Assembly (NCBI RefSeq): GCF_023277745.1
Contig: NZ_CP086322.1
Location: 124,001-188,000 of the forward strand
Origin: Streptomyces halobius
GTDB lineage: Bacteria; Actinomycetota; Actinomycetes; Streptomycetales; Streptomycetaceae
Direction of reading: 5' to 3'
Length of the DNA: 64,000 nt
Part shown: positions 6,901-62,861 of the stretch, piece by piece
Layout of the letters: every line of letters begins with the position of its first letter
How positions within the stretch are numbered: the stretch's first letter is position 1
Made by a program: the position numbers and the translations under genes
Notes under the pieces: model-generated
What the model was told of the DNA's origin: nothing
Databases searched by the model: none
The model's input: the letters and a program-made list of their open reading frames with translations, nothing else

Positions 6901-6979
6901 CTGGGACCCGGCACGACATGCCGACAACGGCGATGGCCTGTTCCCCCTGGCCATCGGACCTTCGCTCGCCCTGTTTCAC
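1..6979 (-). CDS. Type I modular polyketide synthase D: KSQ loading module and extension module 1 (3' end outside window)
   Basis: This is the start of a PKS gene whose 3' end lies off the left edge; about 2,326 codons are visible. GTG at 6979 is chosen because AGGA lies just upstream and the first KS begins within about 15 residues. Visible order: KS (about 14-441), AT (447-861), ACP (907-987), KS (1002-1412), AT (1430-1860), DH (1887-2160), then an inactive-KR spacer and the first residues of a KR (GTVLLT) at the edge. The first KS reads DTGQSSS, with Gln176 in place of the active Cys, which is the hallmark of a decarboxylating KSQ loading domain. The second KS has DTACSSS. The gene lies 49 bp downstream of the KDSR-like gene, at the end of the operon as seen here, although it should encode the first step of chain assembly. 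Later modules or release domains outside the window cannot be judged. Confidence 0.93.
4020..6940 (-). other. PKS D loading module: KSQ-AT-ACP
   Basis: KSQ, AT and ACP domains of the loading module. The AT carries GHSQGE (near 5115) and YASH (near 4810), the pair typical of methylmalonyl-CoA-specific ATs. After decarboxylation by the KSQ this implies a propionyl starter. The ACP has the phosphopantetheine site GFDS (near 4150). Substrate assignment is from motifs only. Confidence 0.85.
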
Positions 6980-7028: not shown

Positions 7029-7907
7029 CTACGGTTCGCGTACTTCACGCGCGGATACGTATCCGACGGGTCGATCGCGGTGTACTTTGCGGACCGTGCG
7101 GTCGACGAACCAGTCGAGCGCACTGGGAAATATCACGGAGAAGGCCGCGCCCATCCGGTTCACCGTGCCGGGCACCATCCGTGTCTTGCGGCGTTCGATG
7201 AGGCGGAGGATCCCGGCAGCCACCTGCTCGGCCGGCATCAGCTTCATGGCTTTGGAGAATTCCTTGGTCTCGATCGGCAGCCGCGGCCGTTCATAGGCGT
7301 AGTGCGGTGTGTCCACATCGGGCGGGCACATGTAGCCGATGTGCAGGCCGTACGGCTTCAGTTCGCCGCGCATTGCCTCCAGCAGGCCGCGTACGGCGAA
7401 CTTCGCCGGGCTGACGGCCGTGTAGCCGAAGGTGCCGGCCATTCCGACGACCGCGGACACGCCGATGATGGTCCCGCGCCGACGCTCGATCATCGACGGC
7501 GCGATGGCCCGGATGGGCCACAGCGTGCCGAAGTAGTCGGTCTCCATGACGTCGCGGAAAGCTCCGTCTTCCAGTTCCTGGAAGTAGCCGGCCTCGGTGA
7601 TGCCCGCCGAGGTGACCAATATGTCGCACGGCCCCTGCCTGGCGGTCAGCTGAGCGACCGCCTCGTCCACCGCGCCCTGGTCGGTCACGTCCGCGGCGGC
7701 CGTGGCCACCTGAGCTCCGCTCCTGGTGAGCTGCGCCGCGGCCTCGTCCAGCCGTGAGGCGGTGCGCGCCATCAGTGAGACGCGCGCGCCCCTGGCGGCC
7801 AGCATCTTGGCCGTGGCCAGGCCGATCCCGCTGGAGCCGCCGGTCACGACGGCGTGCGTCCCGGGACCGATCGGTCCAGCAGTCGCCTCGGCTTTGTTTC
7901 CCTTCAT
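7029..7907 (-). CDS. KDSR-like short-chain dehydrogenase/reductase with altered catalytic residues
   Basis: A 292-residue classical-fold SDR with an intact cofactor motif TGGSSGIG (residues 22-29). The stretch PPDVDTPHYAYERPRLPIET is a close match to the equivalent part of eukaryotic 3-ketodihydrosphingosine reductases, so I place it in that family. The family reduces the 3-keto group of a 2-amino-3-ketone made by an alpha-oxoamine synthase, and such a synthase lies 63 bp upstream. Oddly, the YxxxK motif reads VSPAK: the catalytic Tyr is Val165, with Lys169 kept, and the Ser expected 13 residues before it is Ala152 (Ser151 is adjacent). I checked these codons in the DNA. It may be catalytically dead, use other residues, or act as a partner protein. 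An intact paralogue lies at 61950-62777. ATG 7907 is preceded by GAGAGG. Confidence 0.88.
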   Translation of the reverse strand: MKGNKAEATAGPIGPGTHAVVTGGSSGIGLATAKMLAARGARVSLMARTASRLDEAAAQLTRSGAQVATAAADVTDQGAVDEAVAQLTARQGPCDILVTSAGITEAGYFQELEDGAFRDVMETDYFGTLWPIRAIAPSMIERRRGTIIGVSAVVGMAGTFGYTAVSPAKFAVRGLLEAMRGELKPYGLHIGYMCPPDVDTPHYAYERPRLPIETKEFSKAMKLMPAEQVAAGILRLIERRKTRMVPGTVNRMGAAFSVIFPSALDWFVDRTVRKVHRDRPVGYVSAREVREP

Positions 7908-7970
7908 CGGTTCAGACCTCTCCCAGCCCAGTGAGCACGCGCGTTGACTTCTGTTTCGAACTCGGTGGTG

Positions 7971-9185
7971 TCAGAACAGCTTCTGCTCCCGCAGCTTCTT
8001 CGACACCTCGATGAAGTGGTCCAGCTGCTCGTCGGTGTGCGACGCGTTGAGGATGATGCGCAGCACGGCCTGACCGCGCCGGGCGGCGGGGTACACGTAG
8101 GGAGGGACCCGGATGTCGTGTTCGAGGAAGGCGCCGAAGAGCCTGAGGCACTTGTGCTCGTCGCCGACGACGAGCGAGGTGAAGCAGGTCTCGGTGTCCG
8201 TGATCGGCAGTTCCTCGTCGGTCAGCCGCTTGCGGAAGTCGGCTACCTTCGCGAGGTAGTTGTCGACGATCTCGGGCTCCTGCTCGGTGAGGAGCTTGGT
8301 GATGTAGGTCGTGCCCGCCGCCGCGGGGGCCAGTACTCCAGCGGTGAACGCGCTGGCCCCCGAGAGCAGTTCGAAGGCGGCGATGGCGTCCCGGGGCCCT
8401 GCGATCAGGCCGCCCTCAAGGCCGACGGCCTTCTTCAGGGACACCATGATGAAGGTGGACCGGAGCAGTCCCTGGTACTCCTGGTGGAACTTGCGGTGCG
8501 CGGGACCGTAGACCAGGAAGCCGTTCGCATCGTCCACGTAGGACAGAGCGCCGTACTTCTCGCACACGTCGACGATCTCGTGCATCGGCGCGACCACTCC
8601 GTCGATCGAGTACACCGACTCGAACACGACGACCACGCGCTTGCCCTGCAGTTTCTTGAGGATGGCCTCAAGGCTTTCGACCGAGTTGTGCTCGAACGAG
8701 AACAGCCGCTCGCCGAACTTCAGGCTCTCCGCGGACTTCCACAGCGACCAGTGCGCGTCCCGGTCGAAGACGAAGACGACGTCTCGGTTCACCATCGACA
8801 GGCCCTTCATGAGCGACTGCGTGCCCGCCATCGCGCTCATGAATCCGATGTTCGCGAGCGTTCCGGTCGCGAAGCTGATCGCCGACTCCTTCTGGAGGTA
8901 ATCCGCGATCGTCCGCTCCATGTCGACGTGCGCGGGCGTGACGCCCTGGAGGATGCGGCTGCCACCGGTGGCGAGGCCGTACTGCTTCGTGGCGTCGAGG
9001 AGGACCCGCATCACGTCTTCGCGGCGCTGGAGGTCCAGGAAGTTCACCGATGCGAGATTGGTGATCATCCGGTCGGTGCCGTGCACCGGCCCGGGAATCA
9101 CTTTGGACACCGGCGGTTCGGCCATGCCGGCCGCCCGGATTCCTTCGGCGAACGTGTCGAAATTCCAACCTGGCAGGGAAGTCAT
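7971..9185 (-). CDS. PLP-dependent alpha-oxoamine synthase (serine palmitoyltransferase/AONS-like), proposed polyketide-releasing enzyme
   Basis: A 404-residue fold-type I PLP enzyme of the alpha-oxoamine synthase family (AONS, KBL, ALAS, SPT), which condenses an acyl thioester with an amino acid, releasing CO2 and giving an alpha-amino ketone. Visible motifs: GGSRILQG (74-81), the PLP-stacking His145 in DRDAHWSL, ESVYSIDG (189-196), VDDANG (217-222) with the PLP-binding Asp218, and Lys252 in SLKKAVG as the Schiff-base lysine. In most family members the DDAN position reads D-[DE]-A-H; here the His is Asn221. Length is normal and complete. It follows PKS C, which has no thioesterase, and precedes a KDSR-like reductase, so I infer that it offloads the polyketide chain. 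The amino acid used cannot be read from sequence. An ALAS-type role in C5N unit synthesis is less likely, as the ligase and amide synthase partners are absent. Confidence 0.88.
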   Translation of the reverse strand: MTSLPGWNFDTFAEGIRAAGMAEPPVSKVIPGPVHGTDRMITNLASVNFLDLQRREDVMRVLLDATKQYGLATGGSRILQGVTPAHVDMERTIADYLQKESAISFATGTLANIGFMSAMAGTQSLMKGLSMVNRDVVFVFDRDAHWSLWKSAESLKFGERLFSFEHNSVESLEAILKKLQGKRVVVVFESVYSIDGVVAPMHEIVDVCEKYGALSYVDDANGFLVYGPAHRKFHQEYQGLLRSTFIMVSLKKAVGLEGGLIAGPRDAIAAFELLSGASAFTAGVLAPAAAGTTYITKLLTEQEPEIVDNYLAKVADFRKRLTDEELPITDTETCFTSLVVGDEHKCLRLFGAFLEHDIRVPPYVYPAARRGQAVLRIILNASHTDEQLDHFIEVSKKLREQKLF

Positions 9186-9254
9186 CGCGGGAAAGCCTCG
9201 TCTCTTCTCTGAGCTGTCGAATGTGTCGTGGTCGCGAGACCACGGTGTTGCCGA

Positions 9255-9833
9255 TCAGGTGTACTGCGGCCAGTTCTTGCCGATCGCCCGGAGCAGCTGG
9301 GGGTAGACGAGTACGCGCCGAAAGGGCTTGCCGCCGGTCCTGTAGGCGTGCCCGAGCAGTCCGTTGGGCTTCCACAGCGACGTCATCTGGGCGTAGTACA
9401 TGCCTTTTTGGTCCGGGACCCAGCCGATGTGCATCAAGGTGTGCACCATCCGGTTGGCGAGCTCGGCCACGTACTCGGTGTCCGTCTGGTAGACGGCGAT
9501 GAACGGGACCGACTCGAAGTCCGGGCCGCGCGGCCCGTCGCGGAGGTCCGCCGGGAGCCTGCCCCGGATGGTCTGCACGCGATGCCCCAGGCCCTGGCTC
9601 TCCTTGTCCCATCCGAGCAGCCGGCCAAGCGTCCAGCGGAGTCTGAAGAGGTTTCGGATGATGAAGCGTGAGTTCTCCTCGTCGTCGTCCGCTGTGAACC
9701 CCCGTACGAACCGGGCGAGTTCGTCCGGCCCGCCGGGCGTCGGCAGCGCCCACACATCCTCCACTTCGAAGTCCTGGGTGAACTCGTGGATGCGCCAAGG
9801 CCTGTCGGTGTATTCGGCGTTCGGGATTCTCAT
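9255..9833 (-). CDS. DUF2867 family protein
   Basis: A 192-residue soluble protein of unknown function. The N-terminal run MRIPNAEYTDRPWRIHE and the later VWALPTPGGPDE and LGRLLGWD match my recollection of the DUF2867 family, whose members start the same way; I therefore prefer ATG 9833 to the in-frame ATG at 9878, which would add 15 residues. Neither start has a strong ribosome binding site. The C-terminal half (NRMVHTLMHIGWVP, LWKPNGLLGHAY, PFRRVLVYPQLLRAIG) is also family-like. No catalytic motif is recognisable. It lies between the P450 and the AOS in the operon, which suggests a role near chain release or processing, but this is inference from position. Confidence 0.75.
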   Translation of the reverse strand: MRIPNAEYTDRPWRIHEFTQDFEVEDVWALPTPGGPDELARFVRGFTADDDEENSRFIIRNLFRLRWTLGRLLGWDKESQGLGHRVQTIRGRLPADLRDGPRGPDFESVPFIAVYQTDTEYVAELANRMVHTLMHIGWVPDQKGMYYAQMTSLWKPNGLLGHAYRTGGKPFRRVLVYPQLLRAIGKNWPQYT

Positions 9834-9923
9834 CCGATGTGCTTCATCCGTCCGAAATCGCTGTATCGACCTCTTCATGCGACGGCAACCACCGTGGCGG
9901 GGCCCCGCGCTGCGCCGGCCGTG

Positions 9924-11336
9924 CTAGCCATCGGCCTCCGTCACGCGCCGGGCCCGGTGGGTCCGGGGCCGGAGCTCCAGGCGAGCACCGCGCTTCGGCG
10001 TCATGGTGACGGACCGGCCGACCGGGATCTCCGGTCTCATGTCCGGGCGGTGCAGGTCGCACGTGGTCAGCAGTTCGCGGAGCACCTCCTTCATCTCCAC
10101 GATCGCGATCCGGTCGCCGAGGCAGCGGACGCGGCCGCCGCCGAACGGAATCCAGGCGGAGGTACTGGGCTTGGAGCCGAGGAACCGCTCGGGGCGGAAC
10201 GCGTAGGGGTCCGGGTAGACCTTCGGGTCGTGGTGCACCAGGTAGGCGCTCGCCCAGACCATGCTGCCCGGCTCGTAGCGCACCCCGCCGATCTCGATCG
10301 GTTTGATGACCTCACGGGGGATGATGTGCGGGTTCGGCGGGCACCGGCGGAGCGCCTCGTACACCGTGGCCGTGAGGTACTCGTCGCTGCCGGTCTCGTC
10401 GATCTCGGCGAGGAGCCGCTTGAAGACGGCCGGTTCACGGGTCAGGTGCTCCAGCGACCAGCAGATGGCCGCGGCGGTGGTCTCGGTGCCGGCGACGAAC
10501 ATGGTCATGATCTCGTCCCGTAGCTCGACGGCGCTGAGCGGCGAGCCGTTGTCCGTGGTCATGCCGAGCATCACGGCGAGCATGTCGTCGCCGGGCTCGC
10601 CCGACTCCACGCGCTCGGCGATCGCCTGGGCGAGCAGTTCGTCACAGCGGTCCCGCTGTTTGAAGAAGCGGTCGAGGCCCAGCGGCCGGATCGCCCTGAG
10701 CAGCTTCACGCCGAACGGTGACATCTCGTGCGTCTCGATCATCGTCGCGACGCTCGAATTCAGCTTCAGCATGTCCCAGATGACCTTGAACAGCTCGTCC
10801 CAGCAGGAGGGGACGTGCTTGCCGAAGACGACCTCGCGGATCACCTCGATGGTGAACTTGTGCACGTACGGGCGGAGTGCGACGGCTTTGTTGCGTGGCC
10901 AGCGGGCCACGGACTCCTTGGCCATCTGCCGGACGGATTCCTCCGTCCGCTGGTGTGCGCTGCCGCGTACCGACGGCATGATCTGCTTGCGCCGGGCGAG
11001 GTGTTCCTTCTCGTCCAGCCAGGCCAGTCCTGTCTGGCCGAAGAACTTCTCCAGCGAGGCGCTTCCCGTCCCGGTGTGCAGGACGTCGCTCGGAGCGAGG
11101 AACATCTGCTTCACGTCGTCGGGGTCCGACAGCACGTAGAGCTTGTAGCCGGGGAAGACCTTCAGTTCGAACTGTTTTCCGTACTTGCGGCGGCAGTCCA
11201 TCATGTATTCGCCGGGCCGGCGGAACAGCTGCACGTACTGCATCATCGTGGTCGTCTTGGGGCCCCGGACCCTGGATGCGGGAACTGCGGGCCGTTTCGG
11301 TTCGGTCTCGGCTGTGGTGGTGTTGCGGGTGTCCAT
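9924..11336 (-). CDS. Cytochrome P450
   Basis: A 470-residue heme monooxygenase. The I-helix oxygen-activation motif AGTETTAAA, the ExxR motif in VYEALRR, and the heme loop FGGGRVRCLG with Cys405 are all present. It is longer than typical CYP107-type macrolide P450s (about 400 residues) and its style (QYVQLFRRPGEYMM, PERFLG) is closer to the longer, eukaryote-like bacterial P450s such as CYP110-like enzymes. ATG 11336 has GAGGGG upstream and lies 57 bp after the stop of PKS C. It probably oxidises the polyketide chain or the released amino-alcohol product; the site is not predictable. Electrons may come from the ferredoxin at 50171-50497. No N-terminal membrane anchor is evident. Confidence 0.92.
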   Translation of the reverse strand: MDTRNTTTAETEPKRPAVPASRVRGPKTTTMMQYVQLFRRPGEYMMDCRRKYGKQFELKVFPGYKLYVLSDPDDVKQMFLAPSDVLHTGTGSASLEKFFGQTGLAWLDEKEHLARRKQIMPSVRGSAHQRTEESVRQMAKESVARWPRNKAVALRPYVHKFTIEVIREVVFGKHVPSCWDELFKVIWDMLKLNSSVATMIETHEMSPFGVKLLRAIRPLGLDRFFKQRDRCDELLAQAIAERVESGEPGDDMLAVMLGMTTDNGSPLSAVELRDEIMTMFVAGTETTAAAICWSLEHLTREPAVFKRLLAEIDETGSDEYLTATVYEALRRCPPNPHIIPREVIKPIEIGGVRYEPGSMVWASAYLVHHDPKVYPDPYAFRPERFLGSKPSTSAWIPFGGGRVRCLGDRIAIVEMKEVLRELLTTCDLHRPDMRPEIPVGRSVTMTPKRGARLELRPRTHRARRVTEADG

Positions 11337-11393
11337 TGCGTGGTGACCCCTCGTAGATGTGGCGTGTGGTCCGGTCGGGTCCGTTACGGCACG

Positions 11394-14300
11394 TCAGCCG
11401 CCCGTGGGGACCTGGACGACGGCCGCCAGGTCGCGCAGCGTCTCCAGCAGGCCGGTCTCGCGCAGGTCCTCGACCGGGATCGAGGCGAGCATCGCCCGGA
11501 TCTCGTCCTCCTCCGACAGCTGCGCGTCTGCCGCCGGTTGGCTCGTCCCGGCGTCCGGGGCCACCAGGGTGAGCAGGTGTTCCGCGATGGCCTGCGGTGT
11601 CGGGTGGTCGAAGGCGAGCGTGCCGTCGAGCTGCAGTCCGGTGAGCTTGTTGAGGTGAGTGCTCAGCTCCACCGCGCTCAACGAGTCGAAGCCCAGGTCC
11701 TGAAGCTCACGCTCCGGCTCGATCGCCTCGGCCGAACCGTGGCCGAGCACCACGGCGACCTGGGCCGACACCAGCTCGAGCACGATCCGGAGCCGGTCGG
11801 CCTCGGCCACGCCCGCGAGGCGGACGGCGAGCGACTGGCTCGTCTGCCCGCCGGCAGAGCCGCGCACCAGGCCGTTGGCCTCGATCTCCGGGGCCACCAG
11901 GGTGAGCAGGTGTTCCGCGATGGCCTGCGGCGTCGGGTGGTCGAAGGCGAGCGTGCCGTCGAGCTGCAGTCCGGTGAGCTTGTTGAGGTGAGTGCTCAGC
12001 TCCACCGCGCTCAACGAGTCGAAGCCCAGGTCCTGAAGCTCACGCTCCGGCTCGATCGCCTCGGCCGAACCGTGGCCGAGCACCACGGCGACTTGGGCCG
12101 ACACCAGCTCGAGCACGATCCGGAGCCGGTCGGCCTCGGCCACGCCCGCGAGGCGGACGGCGAGCGACTGGCTCGTCTGCCCGCCGGCAGAGCCGCGCAC
12201 CAGGCCGCGCAGCAGAGCGGGCAGCGTCCCGGCCGATGCCTGGCGCCGCAGTGCGGCCCGGTCCAGCTGCACCGGAACGAGCACCGGAGCGTCCAGTCCG
12301 AGCGCCTGGTCGAACAGCCCCAGGCCGAGCTCGATGGACAGCGGGCGCAGGCCCATTGCTTCCAGACGGGCGACATCGGCCTGGGCCATCCTGCCGGCCA
12401 TCCCGGTGGTGTCCGACCACAGTCCCCACGCCAGCGAGGTGGCCGGGAGTCCTGCGGCGTGCCGGCGCGCGGCGAGCGCGTCGAGCGCGGCGTTGGCCGC
12501 CGAGTAGTTCGCCTGGCCGGGGCTGCCGATCGCCGCCGCGGCCGAGGAGAACAGCACGAACGCGGACAGGTCCATCCCCGCGGTCAGTTCGTGCAGATGC
12601 CACGCCGCATCGACCTTCGACCGCATCACCCGCTCGACCTGCTCGGCGGTCAGCGACCCGACCACGCCGTCGTCCAGCACACCGGCCGCGTGCACGACCG
12701 CGGTCAGCGGCTCGTCCAGCGATGCCAGCAGTGCGGCGACCTGCTCCCGGTCGGCGACGTCGCACGCCGCGACCCGCACGCGGGCGCCGAGCTGCTCCAA
12801 CTCGGCCACCAGCTCGTCCACCCCCTCGGCCATCGCACCGCTCCTGCTGACCAGCAGCAGGTTCCCGGCGCCGTGCCGCTCCACCAGGTGCCTGGCGAAC
12901 ACCGCGCCCAGACCGCTCGTGCCACCGGTCACCAGGACCGTGCCGTCGAAGGCGGGCACCGCGTCCGGCACGGCCTGGATTCGTGCCAGTCGGGGTGCGA
13001 GGGTGCGGCCGTCGCGCACCGCGATCCGCGGCTCGTCGACACCGGCCACCGCGGCCCAGTCGGGGAATTCGGTGTCGGGCACGTCCACGTGGACGAACTG
13101 TTTCGGGTATTCGGCCTGCGCGCTGTGCACCAGAGCGCCCACCGCTGCCTGGACGGGGTCCGGTGTCTCGTCGCCGACCGCGAGGGCCCCGTGGGTCGCC
13201 ACGATCAGTCGTGCGCCGGTCAGCGACTCGACGGCCAGCCACCGCTGGACCAGGTCGAGCGTTTCGGCCACGGCGTCCCGCACGGCCTCAGGGCCGTCGC
13301 CGGGCTGCGTGGTGACGGTGGCGACGACCACGTCCGGCGTCTGCGTACCGTAGGCGAGCTCCTGCTCCAGTGCGTCCAGGTCGGCGAACTCCTGGCCAAG
13401 GACCGCCACCCGTGCCGTTGCCGACGCGCTCGAAACCTGGCTCCAGTCGACCTCGAACAGCGAGTTGCGCTGGGCCCGGCCCCCGTCCACCAGTTGCGCC
13501 GCCTCCAACGGGCGCATGTACAGCCGGTCCATGCTCAGCACCGGCTCGCCCTGCTCGCTGACGATGTCGACCCGGAGCCCGGTGCCTTCCTGCGTCGTGA
13601 CGCGTGACCTGACCCGGGACAGCCCGGTCGTGCCGAGGCGTATGTGCGACCAGGAGAACGGCAGCAGGGCGGTCTGGTCGTCGCCCCGCTGCAGCAGGCT
13701 GGGGTGCATGGCGGCGTCGAACAGGGCCGGGTGGATCCCGAACCCTTCGCCGCTGGTGTCGTCCGGCAGCGCCACTTCGGCGAACACCTCGTCGCCGACG
13801 CGCCACACGGTCCTGACGCTCCGGAAGGCGGGCCCGTAGTCGTAGCCGAGGTCGGACATGCCGGCGTAGAGCTCGTCGACCGACGCCTCCTCGGCGCCCG
13901 CGGGCGGCCATGAGAGGGCCCACTGCGCTGCTATGGGCTCGGCCTCCGGTGCGAGGAGACCTCGGGCGTGACAGGTGGTCTCCGCCAACGCGTCGTCCCC
14001 GCTGTTCTCCGGGCGGGTGTAGATGGCGACCTCGCGGCGGCCGTTGTCATCCGCCGGTCCGACGGTGACCTGGACCTGCCGTGCGACCCCGTCCTCCAGC
14101 AGCAGGGGGGCCTCCACGACCAGTTCGGCGAGCGCCTGGCAGTGGGTGCGTGCACCCGCTGCCAGGGCCAGTTCGACCAGTGCGGTGCCGGGAACGATCG
14201 TCACGTCCTGTACGACGTGGTCCTGGGTCCACCGCTGGGTGTCGGTGGACAGGCGGCCGCTGAACAGCCACTCGTCACGGTTCCCGAGCTGCGTGGCCGC

Positions 14301-17300
14301 CACCAGGATCGGGTGTTTGACCGAGCCGAGGCCGGCCGCGGCGACGTCGCCGGTGCCCGCGCCGGTGGTGAGCCAGTACCGCTCTCGTTGGAAGGCGTAG
14401 GTGGGTAGTTCGACGCGCCGGGCACCGGTACCGGCGTAGTACGCCGCCCAGTCCACCTCCGCACCCGCATTGTGCGCCTGGCCCACAAACCGTGCGAAGG
14501 TCTCCACCTCCGGGTGCCCGCCCCGCAGCACCGGAAGGAACACCCCACCGGACTCACCCTCCAGACTCTGGCGGGCCATCGCGGTCAACACCGCATCCGG
14601 ACCCAACTCCAGGAAACGGCGCACCCCCACACCCCACAGCGTCCGCACACCATCGGCGAAGCGCACCGCCCGACGCACATGCCCCACCCAGTACTCCGCG
14701 TCGAACTCCGCCACCAACTGCCCGGTCACGTTCGACACCAGGGGGATACGCGGCCTGGCGAACGACAACCCCTCAGCGACCGCACGGAACTCCTCCAACA
14801 TCGGCTCCATGCACGGCGAGTGGAACGCATGCGACACCCGCAACCACGTCGTCCTACGACCGTCCCACCGCGGCAGCCACTCCCCCACCGCCTCCCGGTC
14901 ACCCGACACCACCACCGCACGCGGACCGTTCACCGCCGCAATGTCCAACCGGCCCTCGAACCCGGCCAGCGACTCGGCGACCTCATCCTCACCGGCCTGC
15001 ACCGCGACCATCGCCCCACCAGCAGGCAACGCCCCCATCAACCTCCCACGCGCCACCACCAGTTCCACCGCATCCGCCAACGACAACACCCCCGCCACAT
15101 GCGCGGCGGCGATCTCACCCACCGAATGCCCGATCAGGTAGTCGGGGCGGATCCCCAGCGACTCCACCAGCCGGAACAGCGCCACCTCGACAGCGAACAA
15201 CGCCACCTGCGTGAACCGCGTCGAGTCCAGCACCTCACCACCCTGGGCGAGCACCTCCCGCAACGACCGCCCCAAGTGCGGATCAGCCTGCGCACACACC
15301 TCGTCCAACACCGCACCGAACAGCGGGAACCTCTCCGCCAGATCCAGCCCCATCCGAACCCGCTGCGCACCCTGACCCGAGAACAGGAACGCGGTCCCGC
15401 CCGCGATCGCATGGCCCTCGACGGCCGCGGCAGCGGATTCGCCGCCGGCGAGCGCGGCCAACACGGTCAGCAGCTCATCGCGCTCAGCGGCCACCAGTGC
15501 CGCCCGGTGATCCAGCAACGCGCGCGACGTCACCGTCGAGAACGCGACGTCCGCGACGGACAGTTCCGGCCGCGCGACCAGATGGGCCCGCAACCGCTCC
15601 GCCTGCGCCCGCAGCGCCGCACCGCTGCGGGCCGACAGCAGTACGGGCACCGCGCCCGCCGGCCGCTCCACCGGGGACTCGACCGCTTCTTCCGCGGGGG
15701 CTTCCTCAAGGATCACATGCGTGTTGGTGCCGCTGACGCCGAACGACGAGACGCCCGTGCGACGCGGCCGGTCCGAGGCGGGCCACTGACGCGCCTCGGT
15801 AAGCAGCGCGACCGCGCCCGACTCCCAGTCCACGTGCGGCGACGGCTCGTCGGCGTGCAGTGTCGGCGGCAGCACCCCGTGCCGCATGGCCATCACCATC
15901 TTGATCACACCGGCTACACCGGCCGCCGCGGAGCAGTGTCCGATGTTGGACTTGATCGTGCCCAGCCACAGCGGGTCGTCCGCCCGCTCCTGGCCGTAGG
16001 TCGCCAACAGCGCCTGTGCCTCGATCGGGTCGCCCAGGACGGTGCCCGTGCCGTGGCCCTCCACCGCGTCCACGTCGGACGGCGACAGCCCGGCACCGGC
16101 CAGGGCCGCCCGGATCACCCGCTCCTGCGACGGACCGTTGGGCGCCGTCAGCCCGTTGCTGGCACCGTCCTGGTTCACCGCACTGCCCCGCACGACGGCC
16201 AGCACACGGTGACCGTTGCGGCGCGCGTCCGACAGCCGCTCCACCACCAGCAGCCCGAGGCCGTCGGCGAACCCGGTGCCGTCCGCCTGTGCCGAGTACG
16301 CCTTGCACCGGCCGTCGGGGGCCAGACCCCGTTGCCGGCTGAAGTCGACCAGCAGGTGCGGCGCGGTCATCACCGACACGCCGCCGACCAGTGCCATCGA
16401 GCACTCGCCGGAGCGCAGCGCCTGCGAAGCCAGGTGCAGGGCGACCATCGAGGACGAGCACGCCGTGTCGACGGATACGGCGGGGCCCTCCAGGCCGAGG
16501 CTGTAGGCGACGCGTCCGGACACCACGCTGGTGGTGGTGCCGGTCAGGAAGTAGCCGTCCATCTCCCGCAGCTGCGCCGCGCCGTAGTCCGAGGTGACCG
16601 CGCCGGTGAACACACCGGTGTCACTGCCGCGCAGTGACGTCGGGTCGACCCCGGCGCTCTCGATCGCCTCCCATGCTGCTTCCAGCAGCAACCGCTGCTG
16701 CGGGTCCATGGCGAGGGCCTCACGCGGACTGATCCCGAAGAACTCCGCGTCGAAGTCGCCGACCCCGTCGATGAAGCCGCCACCGCGGGTGTACAGGGTC
16801 CCCGGCTGGTCCGGGTCCGGGTCGTAGAGCCGTTCCAGGTCCCAGCCGCGGTCGCCCGGCAGCTCGGAGATGGCGTCCTTGCCGGACACGACCATCTCCC
16901 ACAGGTCTTCCGGGGAGGTCACGCCGCCGGGGTAGCGGCAGCTCATGCCCACGATCGCGAGCGGCTCGTCGGCGTCCGCCGCTTGCGGCCCGGCCCGCAC
17001 CACGGGGCGGGGCGCCTCGACGGCCGCGAGCTCGGCGAGCAGCATCCGTGCGACTGCCGTCGGGTTCGGGTGGTCGAACACGAGGGTCGCGGGCAGTCGG
17101 AGACCGGTGACCTGGGTGAGCCGGTTGCGCAGTTCGACCCCGCTCAGCGAGTCGAATCCGAGTTCCTTGAACGCCCGGCCGTCCTCGATCGCGTCCGCCG
17201 ACGCGTGTCCCAGTACGGACGCGACCTGCGTGCGCACCAGGTCGAGTACGACCTGGTGCCGGTCGTCCTCGGCGACTTGGGCGAGCCGCTGCGCGAGCGA

Positions 17301-20300
17301 TCCGCTCGCCGCCGGACGGCGGGCGGGCGCGCGCACCAGCCCGCGCAGCAGCGGCGGCAGCAGGCCCGCGCGAGCCTGGGTGCGCAGGGCGGCCGGGTCG
17401 AGCTTGACCGGCGCCAGCAGCGCCGCGCTCGTGGACAGGCTCTGGTCGAACAGTTCCAGGCCCAGTTCGACCGGCAGCGCCCCGACGCCCAGCTGCTCCA
17501 GTCGTGCGAGCTCGGCCGCGTCGAGGTGACCGGTCATGCCGGTGGCGTCGGCCCACAGGCCCCAGGCCAGCGAACTGGCCGGCAGCCCGGCAGCGCGCCG
17601 CTGGTGCGCCAGCGCGTCCAGTGTGGCGTTGGCCGCCGCGTAGTTGGCCTGTCCGGGGCTGCCGATCAGCGCGGCGACCGAGGAGAACAGCACGAACGCC
17701 GACAGGTCCAGGTCGGCGGTCAGCTCGTGCAGATGCAGCGCCGCATCGACCTTCGGCCGCATCACGTTCGCCACCCGCTCGCAGGTCAGCGACTCGATCA
17801 CGCCGTCGTCGAGCACCCCCGCGGCATGCACGACCGCCGTGAGCGGGTAGTCCAACCCGTCCAGGAGTGCGGCGAGTTGGCCACGGTCCGCCACGTCGCA
17901 CGCGGCGACCCGCACCTGGGCGCCGAGCGCCTCCAGCTCAGCGGTCAGCTCCTTTGCCCCCTCGGCCGCCGGACCACGCCGGCTGACCAGCAGCAGATGC
18001 CGCACACCGTGCCCGGCGGCCAGGTGCCGGGCGACCAGCGCGCCCAGACCACCCGTACCACCGGTGATCAGGACCGTGCCGTTCTGGTCGATCGGCGCCG
18101 GTACCGTGAGGACGACCTTGCCGGTGTTGTGGCCCTCGCGCAGGAACCGGAAGGCCGCGCCGGCATCGCGGACGTCCCAGGCCCGGAGCGGTGCGTGGGT
18201 GAGCGCGCCCCGCTCGAACAGCGCGGTGATCTCGGTCAGCATCTCCTGCAGCCGGTCCATGCCGGCGTCGAACAGGTCGAACGACTGGTACCGCACCCCG
18301 GTGTGCGCGGCGGCCACGGTGTGCGGGTCGCGGAGGTCCGCCTTGCCCATCTCGACGAACCGGCCGCCGTTCGGCAGCAGGTCGAGCGACGCGTCGACGA
18401 ACTCGCCCGCGAGCGCGTTGAGCACCACGTCGAGGCCGCCGGCCGCGGTCAGGAAGGCGTCCCGGAAGCCGAGGTCGCGCGACGAGGCGATCCGCTCTTC
18501 CGGTACGCCGAGCGCACGCACCGCGTCCCACTTGTGCGGGCTCGCGGTGGCGTAGACCTCCGCGCCGAGGTGGGTGGCCAGCTGCACCGCGGCCATGCCG
18601 ACCCCGCCCGCCGCGGCGTGCACCAGCACCCGCTCGCCCGCGCGCACACCGGCCAGGTCGACCAGGCCGAAGTACGCGGCGAGGTAGGCCACCGGCACCG
18701 ATGCCGCCTCGGTGAACGACCAGTCTGCGGGCATCGGCACGACCGTCCTGCGGTCGGCGACGGCCAGCGGGCCGAAGCCCTCCGGGATGAACCCGAACAC
18801 CCGGTCGCCGGGCGCCAGATCGGTCACATCGGCGCCGACTTCGAGTACGACGCCCGCGGCCTCGCTGCCCAGCGGCGCCTCGTCCGGGTACCGGCCGAGT
18901 GCGATCAGCACGTCCCGGAAGTTCAGTCCGGCGGCGCGCACGCCGACGCGGATCTCGCCCGCGCCCAGTGGCCTGCCGCCTTCCGACGGAGTGAGCGCCA
19001 GGTCCTCCAGCGAACCCTTCCGCGCGCTGGTCAGCCGCCACGCGTCGCCTGACGGGCCCGCGGGTGCCCGGCCGAGCCTCGGCGCGAGCACCCGGCCGTC
19101 ACGCAGCGCGAGTTGCGGCTCGTCCGCGGCCACGAGCGCCGCCCAGTCCGGTGCGTCGCCGGTGCCGGTGTCGGTGTCGACCACCACGAACCGTCCGGGG
19201 TGCTCCGACTGCGCGCTGCGCACCAGGCCCCACACCGGGGCCGACGCCACGTCCGCCGGCTCGTCGCCCACCGCGATGCCGCCGCGCGTCGCCACGACCA
19301 GCCGCGCGTCGCCCATTCGCTCGCCGTTCAGCCACCGCTGCACCAGTTCCAGTGCCCGGACGGCGGTCTCACGCGCGGCGTCCGCGCCGGCGTTCCCGGG
19401 CGCCGGCATCTCGGCGACGACCACGTCCGGTGTGTTCGCGCCGTCGGCGATCGCCTGCTCCAGCGCGTCCAGGTCCGTGAACTCCTCGCCGAGCATGGTG
19501 ACCCGCCCGGCCCCCTTCGGCACGGTGACCTCGGCCCAGTCGATCCGGTACAGCGGGTCGCCGGTCCCCGTGGCGCTGTGAAGCTGCGCGGGGTCGACCG
19601 CGCGGAAGACGAGTTTGTCGATGTGCAGCACCGACTCGCCGTACGCGTCGACGACGTCGACGCGCAGCGTGGAGTCGCCGGCCGGGGAGAGCCGCACCCG
19701 GGCGCCGGTCGCTCCGCCCCCGCCGATCCGTACACCGGACCAGGAGAACGGCAGGACGACCGAGTTGCCCGGCTCCTTCTCCAGCAGGCCGCCGTGCATG
19801 GCGGCGTCGAGCAGCCCCGGGTGGACGCCGAACCCGGCGTTGTCGGCGCCGTCCGGCAGCGCGATCTCCGCGTAGACCTCGTGTCCCAGACGCCATGCGG
19901 CGCGCACGCACTGGAACACCGGCCCGTAGTCGTATCCGAGGTCCGTCATGCCCGCGTAGAGCACGTCCACCGACGCGGCCTGGGCACCCGTCGGCGGCCA
20001 TTGGGCCGCCCAGTCGGCGGCCGGCGCGAGCGCGGGCACGGTGGTCTCGGGGGCGAGCCGGCCGCGCCCGTGACAGGTGGCCTGCTGCCGCTGGTCGTCG
20101 TCGGTCTCCCGGCGCGAGTAGATCGCCACCTCGCGGCGGCCGTCGGCATCAGCCCGGCCGATGGTGATCTGGACCTGACGCGCCGCGTCGTCGGCGAGCA
20201 CCAGCGGTGCCTGAAGCACCATTTCGTCCGCCACGGCGCAGCCCGCCTCGCGGCCGGCGGTCAGTGCCATCTCGACCAGTGCGATGCCCGGGACGATCAC

Positions 20301-23225
20301 CGTGCCGAGCACGGCGTGGTCGCGGGTCCAGGTCTGGCTGTCCGCGGAGATGCGGCCGGTGAACACCCACTCGTCGCGATCGCCGACCGGCACGGCCGCG
20401 GTCAGGACCGGATGGTCGACCTGGCTCAGTCCCGCCACAAAGGCGTCCCCCGCACCGGTTTGCGGCGTCAGCCAGAACCGCTCGCGCTGGAACGCGTACG
20501 TGGGCAGGCCGGTGTGCTGCGCACCGGTGCCCGCGAACAGCTCGGACCAGTCGACGGGGACTCCGGCGGTGTGCGCCTCGGACAGCGACAGCAGGAACCG
20601 CCGCAGGTCCCCCTCGTCCCGGCGCAGCGAGCCGACCACCGCGGCCTGGCTGTCGGCGTCGTGCGCGGCGATCGTCTCTTCCACGGCCATCGCCAGCACC
20701 GGGTGCGGGGATACTTCGACGAAGCAGCCGGCGCCGCCTGCGGCCAGTGCCCGGACGGCGGGCTCGAACCCGACCCGACCGCGCAGGTTGCCGTACCAGT
20801 AGGCGGCGTCCAGCACTTCGCCGTCGACGAACTCGCCCCGTGCGGCTGAGTAGAAGGGGATGCGCGCCGATGTCGGGCGCACCGGTGCCAGCACTTCCAG
20901 CAGCTCGGTCTCGATCGCCTCGACCTGCGTCGAGTGCGAGGCGTAGTCCACGTTCACCCGGCGGGCCCGGATCTCGTCCTGCTCGCACGCCGCGATGATC
21001 TCGTCCAGCGCTGCGGGCTCTCCGGCGATCACCACCGCGGCCGGGCCGTTCACGGCGGCGACCGAGACGCGCCCCTCGTAGGGGGCGAGCAGTTCTTCGA
21101 CGCGCTCGATGGGCAGCGCCACGGACACCATGCCGCCGTGTCCGGCGAGGCGCTCCAGCACCAGTCTGCTGCGCAGCGCCACCACCCGCGCACCGTCTTG
21201 CAGGGACAGCGCTCCGGCCACGCACGCGGCGGCGATCTCACCCTGGGAGTGCCCGAGCACGGCGGACGGCTCGACGCCGTAGGAACGCCACAGCTCGGCG
21301 AGCGAGACCATCACCGCCCACAGTGCGGGCTGGACCACGTCCACCCGCTCCAGCGCGGGTGCGCCTTCGGCGGAGCGCAGCACGTCCTGCAGCGACCAGT
21401 CCACGAAGGGCGACAGGGCCAGGGCGCACTGCGCGATCTGCTCGGCGAACACCGGGGAGGAGTCCAGCAGTTCGACGGCCATGCCCGCCCACTGGGCGCC
21501 CTGCCCGGGGAACACGAAGACCGGCTTGCCTTCCGCCACGCGGCCCTCGACCACGCCGTCGGCGGGTTCGCCTGCGGCGAGCGCGGTCAGCGCGGAGAGC
21601 AGCTCGTCGCGGTCCGCCGCGACGACGACGGCCCGCCGGTCGAGCTGTGCGCGCGTCGTCGCCGTGGAGAAGCCGGTGTCCAGCAGGGAGACCTGGGGCC
21701 GTGCGGTCAGGTGGGTACGGAGCCGCTCGGCCTGCTCTCGCAGTGCGGCCCGGCTCCGCGCGGAGAGCAGTACCGGTACCGAAGGCAGCGGGGCAGCGGC
21801 CTGCTGGGCGGGGGCGTGCTGTTCGGCCGGTGCCTCTTCGAGGATGACGTGGGCGTTGGTGCCGCTGACGCCGAACGAGGAGACGCCCGCGCGCCGCACT
21901 CGCTCGGATGCGGGCCACTGACGTGCCTCGGTGAGCAGTTCGACCTCGCCCGACGCCCAGTCGACGTGCGGGGTCGGCGTGTCCACGTGCAGGGTCGGCG
22001 GCAGCATTCCGTGCCGCATGGCCTGCACCATCTTGATGATGCCCGCGACTCCGGCCGCGGTCGAGGAGTGGCCGATGTTGGACTTGATCGACCCCAGCTG
22101 CAGGGGTCCGTTGGTCCGTTCGCGGCCGTATGTCGCCAGCAGTGCCTGGGCCTCGATGGGGTCGCCGAGGGTGGTGCCGGTGCCGTGGCCCTCGACCGCG
22201 TCCACGTCGGCGGGGCTGAGCCCTGCGTTGGTGAGGGCCTGGCGGATGACCCGCTCCTGCGCGGGGCCGTTCGGCGCGGTGAGGCCGTTGGACGCCCCGT
22301 CCTGGTTGACCGCGCTGCCGCGCACCACGGCAAGGACGTGGTGGCCGTTGCGGCGTGCGTCCGACAGCCGCTCCACCACGATCAGGCCGACGCCGTCGGA
22401 GAAGCCGGTGCCGTCCGCGTCCGCCGCGTACGCCTTGCACCGGCCGTCGGGGGCCAGGCCCCGCTGACGGCTGAAGTCGACGAACAGGGTGGGTCCGGCG
22501 AGCACGGTCACGCCGCCGACCAGCGCCAGCGAGCACTCGCCGGAGCGCAGCGACTGTGCGGCCAGGTGCAGGGCCACCAGGGAGGAGGAGCACGCCGTGT
22601 CCACCGACTCCGAGGGGCCTTCGAGGCCGAAGGCGTAGGAGACCCGTCCCGATACCACGCTCGTCGTCGATCCGGTCAGCCGGAGCCCCTCGATCTGGGG
22701 CAGGCTGCCGGCGGGAGCTGCCGCGTAGTCCGAGGGGCCGACGCCGCAGAAGACGGCGGTGTCGCTGCCGCGCAGTGACGTCGGGTCGATGCCCGCGTCC
22801 TCGAACGCCTCCCAGGCCCCTTCCAGCATCAGTCGCTGCTGCGGGTCCATCGACAGCGCCTCACGCGGGCTGATTCCGAAGAAGTCCGCGTCGAACGTGG
22901 GCACGGTGTCGACGAACCCGCCGATGCGGGAGTAGGACGTGCCGAGCTGGTCGGGGTCCGGGTCGTAGAGCCGCTCCAGGTCCCAGCCGCGGTCGGTCGG
23001 CAGCCCGGACATTCCGTCGCGGCCCGAGGCGACGAGGTCCCACAGTTCGCCCGGCGAGGTGATGCCGCCGGGGTAGCGGCAGCTCATGCCGACGATCGCC
23101 AGCGGCTCGTTCGCACGGTCCTCGAACTCCCGCAGCCGGGTTCGGGTCTCGTTGAGCTCGACGGCCGTCCGCTTCAGGTACTGAACGAGCTTTTCCTGCT
23201 GTGGGTCGGTGCTTTCCGCGCTCAT
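11394..23225 (-). CDS. Type I modular polyketide synthase C: two modules, terminal tandem ACP, no thioesterase
   Basis: 3,943 residues. ATG 23225 is preceded by GAGGAAAG and follows the PKS B stop by 14 bp. An N-terminal coiled-coil docking segment ([20 protein letters not shown]) precedes module C1: KS (41-462), AT (481-912), DH (933-1212), ER (1394-1709), KR (1714-1962), ACP (1976-2062). Module C2: KS (2086-2506), AT (2523-2949), DH (2966-3246), KR (3424-3673), ACP (3679-3772), ACP (3789-3882). The protein ends in a short tail ([20 protein letters not shown]) and has neither a thioesterase nor a reductase domain. As the P450, DUF2867, AOS and SDR genes follow immediately, I infer that C is the last PKS in the line and passes its chain to the AOS. 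Both KS domains have DTACSSS. Confidence 0.96.
11555..12207 (-). repeat. Tandem duplication of the terminal ACP coding segment
   Basis: Two copies of a 320-bp block (11555-11874 and 11888-12207) lie 333 bp apart and differ at about two positions by eye (for example 11603 versus 11936). Each encodes a complete ACP from the SQSLAVRL segment to the LLTLVAP segment. The spacing is a whole number of codons (111), so the frame is kept. Such high nucleotide identity points to a recent duplication or recent homogenisation. Confidence 0.95.
11570..16970 (-). other. PKS module C2: KS-AT(malonyl)-DH(variant)-KR-ACP-ACP, predicted terminal module
   Basis: The AT has GHSVGE and HAFH (malonyl type). The DH N-terminal motif reads [10 protein letters not shown], so the Gly of HxxxGxxxxP is Asp, while FDAAMH is kept; dehydration may be lost or weak. 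The KR is intact and B-type (LDD). Two almost identical ACPs follow, each with GFDS. If the DH is inactive the chain would carry a beta-hydroxyl at release. Confidence 0.85.
14384..15410. repeat. Long direct repeat 1, copy in PKS C module C2 (AT)
   Basis: About 1.03 kb covering most of the AT domain is almost identical to 42933-43959 in PKS A module A1. Only a few differences were seen by eye (14406, about 14756 and about 15136). It ends abruptly near 15410, where the flanks diverge, consistent with recombination or gene conversion. Confidence 0.9.
17030..23110 (-). other. PKS module C1: KS-AT(methylmalonyl)-DH-ER-KR-ACP
   Basis: The AT has GHSQGE and YASH (methylmalonyl type). DH motifs [10 protein letters not shown] and LLDAAMH are intact. 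The ER has the NADPH loop [11 protein letters not shown] near 18600. The KR has the LDD motif of B-type domains and an intact Ser-Tyr-Asn active site. A fully saturated methyl-branched unit is predicted. Confidence 0.88.
17442..18082. repeat. Long direct repeat 3, shorter copy in module C1 (KR)
   Basis: About 640 bp nearly identical to 23879-24519 of module B2 at an offset of 6,437 bp. The match stops at 18082, where C1 carries ER-type flanking sequence instead. Confidence 0.88.
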
Positions 23226-23239
23226 GTTCACTTTCCTCT

Positions 23240-26200
23240 TCACCCCTCGCCGATCTCGGCGTCGATCAACTGGAAGACCTCGTCGGCGGTCGTAGCCGCC
23301 TCGATCAGTGCACGTGTGCTCTGTCCGCCTTCGGTGATGTCGGCGAGCAGCGTGCGCAGTCGACCTGCAACGCGCTGTTTCTCGCTGGTCGCGCTCTGGG
23401 CAAGCATGTTTTCGAGCTTCGTCAACTCCTGGTCGATGGGCGGTTCTTCGGTGCCGCCGCCGATCTCGGAGAGGATCAGTCGTGCTACCGCGGCCGGTGT
23501 CGGGTGGTCGAAGACCAGGCTCACGGGCAGCCGCATCCCGGTGGTCTGGGTCAGTCTGTTGCGCAGCCCGACCGCGGCCAGCGAGTCGAATCCCAGCTCC
23601 TGGAAGGCTCGCTCCGGGCCGATCGTGGCGGCGGAGGTGTGGCCGAGGACGGCCGCGACCTGCTCCCGCACCAGGTTGAGTACGACCTTCTCGCGGTCGG
23701 CTTCCGCCACTTGGGACAGCTGCTGTGTCAGCGATCCGCCTGTGGCGTCGGCGCGCCGTGCCGGTGCGCGCACCAGCCCGCGCAGCAGCGGCGGCAGCAG
23801 GCCCGCGCGGGCCTGGGTGCGCAGGGCGGCCGGGTCGAGCTTGACCGGCGCCAGCAGCGCCGTGTCCGATGCGAGTGCCTGGTCGAACAGTTCCAGGCCC
23901 AGTTCGACCGGCAGCGCCCCGACGCCCAGCTGCTCCAGTCGTGCGAGCTCGGCCGCGTCGAGGTGACCGGTCATGCCGGTGGCGTCGGCCCACAGGCCCC
24001 AGGCCAGCGAACTGGCCGGCAGCCCGGCAGCGCGCCGCTGGTGCGCCAGCGCGTCCAGTGTGGCGTTGGCCGCCGCGTAGTTGGCCTGTCCGGGGCTGCC
24101 GACCAGCGCGGCGACCGAGGAGAACAGCACGAACGCCGACAGGTCCAGGTCGGCGGTCAGCTCGTGCAGATGCAGCGCCGCATCGACCTTCGGCCGCATC
24201 ACGTTCGCCACCCGCTCGCAGGTCAGCGACTCGATCACGCCGTCGTCGAGCACCCCCGCGGCATGCACGACCGCCGTGAGCGGGTAGTCCAACCCGTCCA
24301 GGAGTGCGGCGAGTTGGCCACGGTCCGCCACGTCGCACGCGGCGACCCGCACCTGGGCGCCGAGCGCCTCCAGCTCAGCGGTCAGCTCCTTTGCCCCCTC
24401 GGCCGCCGGACCACGCCGGCTGACCAGCAGCAGATGCCGCACACCGTGCCCGGCGGCCAGGTGCCGGGCGACCAGCGCGCCCAGACCACCCGTACCACCG
24501 GTGATCAGGACCGTGCCGTCCGCGTCCAACGCCCGCGCCCCGGACGGCACCGCCGCGTCGGCACGCCCCAGACGCGGCGCCCGCAACCCGCCCTGGCGCA
24601 CGGCCAGCTGCGGCTCGTCCAGCTCCAGGAGCGAACCCCAGTCCACCTCGCCGCCGCCGACGTCGTCGTCGAGGTCCACCAGCACGAACCGGCCCGGGTG
24701 CTCGGACTGGGCGCTGCGCACCAGACCCCACACCGCGGCCTGCGCGATGTCCGGCGATTCGCCCGCCACCGCGACCGCGCCGCGGGTGACGAAGACCAGC
24801 CGTGTGCCGGTGAACCGCTCACTGGCCAGCCACCGCTGGATCAGTTCGAGCGTCCGCCCGGTGACGGCCCGCGCGCTCTCACCCGCATCGCCCGCATCGG
24901 CCGCATCGGCCTGATCGGCCGGGGCCTCGACCCCGACCAGGACTGCTTCGGGTGCCGCCGCACCCTGCGCGAGGGCCCGCTCCAGCGCGTCCAGGTCCGC
25001 GAACCGCTCGCCGGACACGGCGAGTTCACCGAGGACGGCACATTGCGCCGGTTGGGGCGCCGCGGCTCTCACCGGGGTCCAGTCGAGGCGGAACAGCGGG
25101 TTGTCGGAGCGGTTTTGTGCCGCCTCGATCTGCGCCTGTTCGACCGGCCGGATATCGAGCCGCTGCACGCTCGCGATCGGCAGGCCGTCCTCGCCCGCGA
25201 TGTCGATCCGCAGCGTGGTGTCGCTCGTCGGGGCGCTGCGCACCCGCAGCCGGGTGAGGCCGCTTTGGTGCAGCCGGACCCTGGTCCAGGAGAACGGCAG
25301 CCCGCCCTGGGTGCCGTCCGTCTGGCCGAGCATGCTGAGTCCGCCGTGCAGTGCGGAGTCGAACAGCGCGGGGTGGAGGGCGAATCCCTCGGCCGGTCCC
25401 GCGTCGTCGGGCAGCACCAGTTCGGTGTAGACCGCGTCGCCGGAGCGCCATGCCGCCTGTACGCCGCGGAAGGCGGGGCCGTAGTCGAAGTCGTCGTCGG
25501 TGCGGTGCGCGTAGGCGTTGAGGCGGGTGTAGAGCGTGTCGACGGTGAGGGGTTGTGCATCGGGCGGCGGCCACTGTGCGGGGAACGGCTCGGACGGCTC
25601 GGTGTCCGGGGCCAGCCAGCCACGCCCGTGGCACGTCGTCTCGGGCTGCTCCTCCTGTGCGCCGGACTGCGGCTGCGAGAAGATCGCGATCTCGCGGCGG
25701 CCGTCGTCCGCGGCCGGGCCGACGGTGACCTGGATGTGCCGTACGGCGTCCTCTTCCAGGATCAGCGGCGACTCGATGACCAGCTCGTCCAGCATCTGGC
25801 AGCCCACCTCGTCACCCGCCGTCAGGGCGAGTTCGACCAGTGCGGCCCCCGGCACCACGACCGTCGCGAACACCAGGTGGTCCCGGGTCCAGGGGTGCGC
25901 GTCGAGGGACATGCGGCCGGTGAACACCCACTCGTCCCGGTCGCCCAGCCGCACCGAGGCGGCGAGGACCGGGTGCTCGACGCGGCCCTGTCCGGCCGCG
26001 CTGGCGTCCGTGGTCCTGGCGCTCGGGGTGAGCCAGAACCGCTCGCGCTGGAAGGCGTACGTGGGCAGCGGTACGCGCTGGGCGCCGCTGTGGGCGTACA
26101 GCTTTGGCCAGTTCACCTCCACCCCGGCCGCGTGTGCCTCGGCCAGGGATGTCACGAACCGTGCGAGACCGCCCTCGTTTCGGCGCAGCGATCCGACGAT

Positions 26201-54270: not shown

Positions 54271-55244
<974 letters not shown>

Positions 55245-55248
<4 letters not shown>

Positions 55249-56759: not shown

Positions 56760-56777
56760 TTGATCGTGGAGGTGTTG

Positions 56778-62777: not shown

Positions 62778-62861
62778 CAAAACCCACCCCCACCAAAAAA
62801 CACTCCAACACAAACCCACACCACCGCAACGAAAACCGCCGCAACAGCCCCCGACACCACC

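Follow-up and report, generated by a model that had tools for sequence, protein, structure and literature searches.

In a 64,000 nt stretch of the Streptomyces halobius genome (C1:124001-188000 of a 9.24 Mb single-contig genome; the whole stretch is called the window), a cis-acyltransferase (cis-AT) modular polyketide synthase (PKS) with the proteins D, A, B and C is encoded together with a discrete, pyridoxal phosphate (PLP)-dependent alpha-oxoamine synthase (AOS). We consider it very likely that the AOS replaces the thioesterase (TE) of this line, and frees the chain from the terminal acyl carrier protein (ACP) domain with an amino acid, as a 2-amino-3-ketone. An independent test is given by four sister lines that lack the AOS and were found through PKS D or a cytochrome P450: all four carry a TE.

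The genes of the cluster follow each other on the minus strand in the order PKS A, B, C, P450, DUF2867, AOS, short-chain dehydrogenase/reductase (SDR), PKS D and a free thioesterase gene (window numbering; PKS modules from Pfam and motif reading):

34051..45783, minus strand: PKS A, modules 2 and 3, with an N-terminal docking domain
23240..34054, minus strand: PKS B, modules 4 and 5
11394..23225, minus strand: PKS C, modules 6 and 7, two terminal ACPs, without TE or reductase (R) domain
9924..11336, minus strand: cytochrome P450
9255..9878, minus strand: DUF2867 protein, predicted helix-grip-like fold (weak match)
7971..9185, minus strand: AOS, proposed chain-release enzyme (Lys252, His145, Asp218, Asn221, Arg376)
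7029..7907, minus strand: SDR with a PPDVDTP segment, proposed 3-ketone reductase
2..6979 within the window, minus strand: PKS D, KSQ-AT-ACP loading module and module 1; its stop is at -1153, 1.15 kb left of the window
-1416 to -2201, minus strand: free thioesterase gene

In order from PKS A to PKS D, the successive intergenic gaps measure -4, 14, 57, 45, 69, 63 and 49 bases, 262 bases lie between PKS D and the free thioesterase gene, and the reading frames of the cluster are open. The positions at which an earlier, sequence-only reading had placed the SDR, AOS, DUF2867, P450 and PKS C genes on the minus strand were confirmed.

The PKS line lacks a release domain

Pfam found neither a TE nor an R domain in PKS A, B, C or the portion of PKS D inside the window. 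PKS C ends KR-ACP-ACP, in agreement with the earlier statement that it closes with two ACPs and carries neither of the two domains. The sequence-only reading had named a TE or R release domain on a PKS left of the window as a finding that would speak against it. None is present there: PKS D, which begins the line, ends KR-ACP in the part beyond the window (read by eye). Genome-wide searches gave, for this region, no PF00975 match other than the free thioesterase (C1:121841-122509), and the nearest PF07993 match is at C1:537934.

Sister lines without the AOS end in a thioesterase

As a control independent of the AOS, the order draw (293 genomes) was searched with the P450 and with the KSQ domain of PKS D. 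The KSQ domain had matches at an E-value of 1e-150 in 59 genomes, and those with at least 70% identity were located in the window, G213, G239 (two places), G028, G226, G234, G047, G140 and G010. The P450 was found at 1e-120 in eight genomes (window, G028, G213, G220, G226, G234, G239 at two places, and G007). This led to four sister lines: one in G213 (C1:7.27-7.30 Mb; L064-L066), two in G239 (C1:150-190 kb and 1.73-1.77 Mb; L067-L070 and L077) and one in G007 (L075). G047, G140 and G010 were rejected as sister lines, being other clusters.

In all four sister lines PKS modules related to those of A-C stand beside the P450, and in three of them the DUF2867 gene and PKS D are present in the same order. 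No AOS was found at an E-value of 1e-4 in the stretch of any of the four, and none at 1e-60 anywhere in the G239 and G007 genomes; G213 has an AOS at 1e-60, which is fused and located 3 Mb from the sister line, beside other KS genes. The terminal PKS of every sister line ends ACP-TE, with PF00975 scores of 59.5, 64.0, 51.8 and 86.9 bits (cut-off 26.4). The interval between the DUF2867 gene and PKS D, where the AOS is located in AOS lines, measures 105 to 205 bases in the three complete sister lines. A TE without AOS in 4/4 sister lines and an AOS without TE in 7/7 AOS clusters (see below) therefore indicate that TE and AOS exclude or replace each other in this PKS family. As to other genes of these lines, in G213 PKS D is followed by an acyl-CoA dehydrogenase gene, look-alikes stand after D in the G226 AOS cluster as well as in G239, and G213 has an MFS transporter between P450 and DUF2867.

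The AOS recurs beside related PKSs

An AOS with at least 73% identity was found in NRRL S-118 (L015), S. oceani (L016), Kitasatospora A2-31 (L017), S. chumphonensis (L018, G226), G234 and G028, which together with the window are counted as seven AOS clusters. In the order draw, eight of the 293 genomes have an AOS at an E-value of 1e-60, four of them (including the window) beside a modular PKS. Four of 392 genomes of the genus draw pass 1e-110, and in the phylum draw one of 396, the window, passes 1e-80.

In every AOS cluster the AOS either adjoins the last PKS or follows it, separated by nothing but P450 and DUF2867, and S-118 has the same layout as the window. Relatives of the P450 and DUF2867 occur in six of the seven clusters, and in G028 they are on the opposite strand, about 11 kb off. 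For Kitasatospora A2-31, a DUF2867 protein of this strain is encoded on a contig equal in length to that of the AOS. A TE is lacking from all seven, as judged by Pfam for the window, S. oceani and G234 and by the end sequence for S-118, G226, G028 and Kitasatospora. The compared stretches are 16 to 144 kb long (21 kb for Kitasatospora), and because of these unequal lengths a missing gene is informative only in the 100 kb stretches of G028 and G234 and, in part, in the 40 kb stretch of G226. In Frankia sp. QA3 (L022) a remnant row consists of the end of the P450, DUF2867 and a truncated AOS (158 of 404 residues).

The AOS is complete and forms a separate group

The claim that the operon contains a complete AOS was verified. 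The protein is a fold type I PLP enzyme of the AOS superfamily that keeps the PLP lysine (K252), the stacking histidine (H145), the aspartate to N1 of PLP (D218) and the carboxylate-binding arginine (R376), and its predicted structure has the full AOS fold. It matched 14 NCBIfam models, each with a score below the cut-off. Curated profiles of serine palmitoyltransferase (SPT) gave 161.6, 157.9 and 144.3 bits versus cut-offs of 500, 640 and 670, and the profile of 5-aminolevulinate synthase (ALAS) gave 170.4 bits versus a cut-off of 338.55. The ALAS score argues against an AOS of the succinyl-CoA type, the second finding that had been named beforehand as contrary to the proposed release.

In a tree of 56 hand-chosen rows, which contained no fungal row and for which the program warned of long branches among the outer rows, the window AOS falls into a clade of 47 rows; a branch of length 2.37 (100/100) separates this clade from the other paralogues, ALAS and KBL among them. 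The subclade of the window AOS comprises 12 rows (100/99), five of them with PKS context seen, and the adjoining rows include the fused AOS of strain SAJ15. The window AOS lacks the His of the D-[DE]-[AS]-H motif and has Asn221 in its place. Among the matches listed, with the fused row P0107 left out beforehand, this position is Asn in 102 of 102 close and intermediate homologues and His in 14 of 14 distant ones; judging by these counts, Asn221 is a subclade trait.

A terminal ACP was kept when a module was lost

The duplicated terminal ACPs of PKS C are located at about 11550..12210 on the minus strand, with copy 1 at 11887-12207 (321-nt copies, 333-nt offset). Since the copies are identical in 319 of 321 nt, and S-118, the closest relative, has one terminal ACP, the tandem ACP of the window is a recent duplication. 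The earlier suggestion that it is part of the release logic was thus not borne out.

An extra PKS E (KS-AT-DH-ER-KR-ACP, without ER in S. oceani) follows C in five of the seven AOS clusters. No E was seen in the window and in S-118, the contig of which begins inside PKS C. In E-bearing clusters with a visible C end (4/5), PKS C carries an additional tail of the SIDDMDA type, which is absent from E and from the window PKS C. In an ACP tree (36 rows, only 90 columns) the terminal ACP of PKS C, in the window as in S-118, is placed inside the E-ACP clade (100/99), beside S. oceani E (97/90). By BLAST, the linker-ACP segment of the window PKS C is closer to E (67%) than to C2 (60%), while its DH best fits C2; the AT of its module 7 was converted from PKS A module 2 (94% identity). 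The ACP tree and the segment-wise BLAST argue that a module was cut out and the ACP standing before the AOS was kept. What was retained through this loss in the window and S-118 is an E-type terminal ACP.

Order of the line and predicted chain

Modules were read by motif and Pfam, and the AT specificities, taken from motifs, are predictions. In the first KS of PKS D the active Cys is replaced by Gln (DTGQSSSL), and together with an AT with a YASHS motif and an ACP it constitutes a KSQ loading module. An N-terminal docking domain was detected by Pfam in each of PKS A, B and C, and no such domain in the part of PKS D inside the window. From these features PKS D opens the line, and the order is D-A-B-C; a role of PKS D as a later module was rejected because of the KSQ loading domain. 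With successive modules on several proteins, docking domains and a loading module, the line is a cis-AT modular type I PKS.

Module 1 (PKS D) and module 2 (PKS A) are both composed of KS, malonyl AT, DH, KR and ACP, and module 3 (PKS A) of KS, methylmalonyl AT, DH, ER, KR and ACP. Module 4 (PKS B) has a malonyl AT, DH and KR, module 5 (PKS B) a methylmalonyl AT, a DH with HxxxA in place of HxxxG, and KR, module 6 (PKS C) a methylmalonyl AT, DH, ER and KR, and module 7 (PKS C) a malonyl AT, a DH with HxxxD in place of HxxxG, and KR. The altered DH motif of module 7 is common to the window (HxxxD) and S-118 (HxxxE) and not present in G234, G226 and G028, so module 7 may leave a beta-hydroxyl in the window/S-118 lineage. 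The loading AT of G028 has a malonyl-type motif, unlike those of the window, S-118, S. oceani and G234. The KR sequences of modules 4, 5 and 6 (PKS B and C) share long identical stretches, seen by eye, and together with the 94% identical AT pair of PKS A module 2 and PKS C module 7 this represents gene conversion within the line.

The domain content predicts a propionate-primed acyl chain with 17 backbone carbons, three methyl branches and several double bonds. For the E-bearing relatives 19 backbone carbons are predicted; in both cases the carbons of the amino acid are added. With serine or alanine, the window chain would yield a C19 sphingoid-like skeleton.

SDR, P450 and DUF2867 protein

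The SDR consists of an SDR core and the PPDVDTP segment, and we take PPDxDTP to be a mark of 3-ketodihydrosphingosine reductase (KDSR). In a search with a five-sequence profile of the SDR, the KDSR structure 8jat (TSC10) was at rank 18 of 573 with 116.5 bits (best match 137.8), and in the single-sequence search TSC10 was at rank 49 of 609. The last 111 SDR residues alone gave no KDSR match. Of the earlier designation as a KDSR-like reductase, the PPDVDTP segment stands; the name leans mainly on this one motif, and KDSR is a weak label for a sequence that is compatible with this function. A second SDR with PPDVDTP (61950-62819, minus strand) has 70.7% identity to an SDR at the edge of the G234 cluster, and may be a displaced cluster gene.

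Since P450 and DUF2867 are also present in TE-bearing sister lines (P450 relatives in 4/4), they are expected to act on the products of the line in general, and not to be tied to amine chemistry.

Proposed release and alternative explanations

Decarboxylative condensation of an amino acid with an acyl thioester is established AOS chemistry. In the proposed pathway the terminal ACP would present the finished acyl chain to the AOS, which would form an aldimine with the amino acid; the quinonoid would attack the acyl-ACP thioester, and after loss of CO2 a methyl-branched, unsaturated 2-amino-3-ketone would be set free. The adjacent SDR would probably reduce the C3 ketone, perhaps to a sphingoid-like base, and P450 and DUF2867 would act on the products of the line generally. 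The TE/AOS exchange and the retention of the E-type ACP agree with an AOS that consumes the PKS-bound chain. We infer the use of the ACP-bound chain by the AOS, its choice of amino acid, the action of the SDR on its product, and the final structure.

Several observations weigh against this proposal. Asn221 replaces the usual His, therefore the chemistry of the AOS could differ. In the structural comparison SPT, KBL and ALAS chains tie within 1 Z, so the structure does not tell whether the substrate is SPT-like or ALAS- or KBL-like. The AOS served as the probe by which the related clusters were found, and its presence in them is thus given by construction. Some AOS pairs are nearly identical (G234/G226 98.5%, G028/Kitasatospora 95.3%, window/S-118 92%), and therefore the seven clusters represent about four lineages. 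The free thioesterase, the gene of which was found in three of the seven AOS clusters, could release some chain. In BLAST the KS of the window PKS C fits C2 (81.9%) better than E (79.2%) by a small margin, and KR and tail are ambiguous. Finally, of the PKS-AOS-KDSR neighbourhoods that the sequence-only reading had proposed to search for, the PKS-AOS pair recurs in six related clusters, and an SDR of either window type was seen in only four of the seven.

This scattered occurrence of a ketone-removing SDR would also fit a different fate of the product. The AOS may release the chain, and the aminoketone may then cyclise (pyrrolinone, pyrrole, hydroxypiperidine or pyrazine type) to an alkaloid instead of a linear sphingoid base. 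RedL of the prodiginine pathway stands for such a route. Prodiginine and tambjamine pathways turn AOS products into pyrroles (excerpts of PMC3870968 and PMC4698589). The obvious helpers of a cyclisation, P450 and DUF2867, are also found in the TE-bearing sister lines without AOS, and DUF2867 is a common family, with at least 7797 homologues at an E-value of 1e-5. We regard cyclisation as unlikely, but as an alternative to be taken seriously.

ALAS-type AOSs are known from polyketide clusters of Streptomyces, and 262 bases past PKS D there is a gene for a free thioesterase. The product of the AOS could accordingly be a short aminoketone, such as 5-aminolevulinate for a C5N unit, which would be joined as a small side piece to a polyketide acid freed by, for example, the free thioesterase. 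The ALAS score of the AOS is far from the cut-off, whereas a separate AOS of the host genome (G000, C1:7936192-7938431) exceeds this cut-off, is followed by an AMP-binding gene and likely represents a C5N-unit locus. Furthermore, no PF00501 match is present between C1:104672 and C1:536195, the free thioesterase was not found in the clusters of G234 (100 kb) and G226 (40 kb), and it is precisely in the AOS-bearing lines that the TE of the sister lines is missing. Taken with these findings, a side piece is very improbable.

We judge it equally improbable that the cluster is decayed and makes nothing. The duplication of the terminal ACP, the traces of gene conversion, the altered DH motif of module 7 and mobile elements to the right could be signs of decay, but the reading frames are open, the catalytic residues of the AOS are intact, and S-118 has the same layout, a 92% identical AOS and the same altered DH position. 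That the line is incomplete, with PKS C passing the chain to a further module encoded elsewhere and the AOS being incidental, is suggested by module E after C in five of seven AOS clusters, but hardly credible given that the window C lacks the SIDDMDA-type tail present on C in four E-bearing clusters, that its terminal ACP is itself E-type, and that E is also without TE and followed by the AOS.

Flanking genes and other AOS loci

At higher window positions than PKS A, three further genes are located on the minus strand. They encode a carboxyltransferase (46875-48824), another P450 (50926-52314) and a class III aminotransferase of 561 aa (52342-54027); no counterparts of these three were found in the related stretches at the thresholds used. 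On the plus strand follow an ABC-2 type transporter membrane protein (54795-56318), an HTH_38 protein (56760-57713), which resembles an IS30-type transposase, and a group II intron reverse transcriptase/maturase (58286-60139; RVT_1, RVT_N, GIIM).

Related AOSs are also encoded in loci with several KS-like genes (G213 at 4280720, L031-L032; L019; G358 at 4811012, L044-L045). Those of the G213 locus and of L019 are fusion proteins with a long C-terminal part, by eye resembling hot-dog domains. In L034 (G109), L035 (G164), L036 (G279) and L020 an AOS with about 43-49% identity is located near a long AMP-ligase-like protein, and some of these loci also have an SDR or a thiamine-enzyme-like protein (all by eye), suggesting other carrier-bound AOS pathways.

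Relation to known systems and significance

In the fungal fumonisin and sphingofungin pathways the chain of an iterative PKS is released by an AOS, and the 3-ketone is then reduced by a KDSR-type SDR. RedL of the prodiginine pathway, where RedN is found alongside, is a type I PKS that has a single extension module and ends in an AOS. The claim of the sequence-only reading that no well-described bacterial modular PKS is released in this way was too broad, as RedL, PigH-type proteins and SgaABC are precedents. The fungal pathways share with the window the order of steps (PKS, AOS, SDR), but their PKS is iterative, and the window AOS stands in a separate bacterial clade in our tree without fungal rows. 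RedL/RedN, PigH and TamD resemble the window in a bacterial AOS that condenses an ACP-bound substrate with an amino acid; they differ in having the AOS domain in cis in short pathways to pyrroles, whereas the window has a long line and a separate AOS.

PigH and two S. griseoviridis proteins are described as the carrier-AOS type of prodiginine pathways (excerpt of PMC3870968), and TamD as the AOS of the tambjamine pathway (excerpt of PMC4698589). D6B3S9 of S. albus J1074 is a PKS-type Streptomyces protein that likewise ends in an AOS, but as KR-CP-AOS, fused in cis (excerpt of PMC3870968). Alb29, the albogrisin AOS, is another AOS from a Streptomyces natural-product pathway (excerpt of PMC11906848), and its structure 8xha has 21% identity to the window AOS in the structural alignment. 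Closest in concept is SgaABC of Pseudomonas fluorescens MYb115, an iterative PKS/AOS/KDSR set, in which the chain of a bacterial type I PKS passes to a discrete AOS and a KDSR-type SDR is proposed to act next; PfSgaB, the tested AOS beside a bacterial PKS, uses L-serine with acyl-CoA surrogates, and FUM13 and SphF are given as the KDSR homologues of the fumonisin and sphingofungin pathways (excerpt of PMC12134224). SgaA is one iterative PKS that makes long-chain sphinganines (same source), whereas the window, from an actinomycete, has four proteins with seven extension modules, a predicted methyl-branched unsaturated chain, a P450 and DUF2867. The TE-ended sister lines in G213, G239 and G007 have related modules and the P450, and differ in the terminal TE and in the lack of an AOS in the stretch.

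Release of PKS chains by an AOS is thus already known from simpler systems; a discrete AOS closing a long, multimodular cis-AT PKS was not found in the literature searched. It is possible, at somewhat less than an even chance in our estimate, that these lines are the first multimodular ones devoted to mimics of sphingoid bases: skeletons of C19 (window, S-118) or C21 (E-bearing relatives), programmed, methyl-branched and polyunsaturated, would be released by a discrete, ACP-dependent AOS of the Asn type, TE and AOS would have been exchanged in evolution, and terminal ACP and AOS would form a portable release cassette.

If the proposed release is true, it would add a further release mode for modular PKSs, which leaves a 2-amino-3-ketone or 2-amino-3-alcohol and not an acid or lactone, and it would explain TE-less orphan clusters. 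The same PKS family with either TE or AOS would be a natural comparison of release modes, and the AOS with the terminal ACP would allow a clean in vitro test. It would also provide a part for engineering that evolution appears to have moved already.
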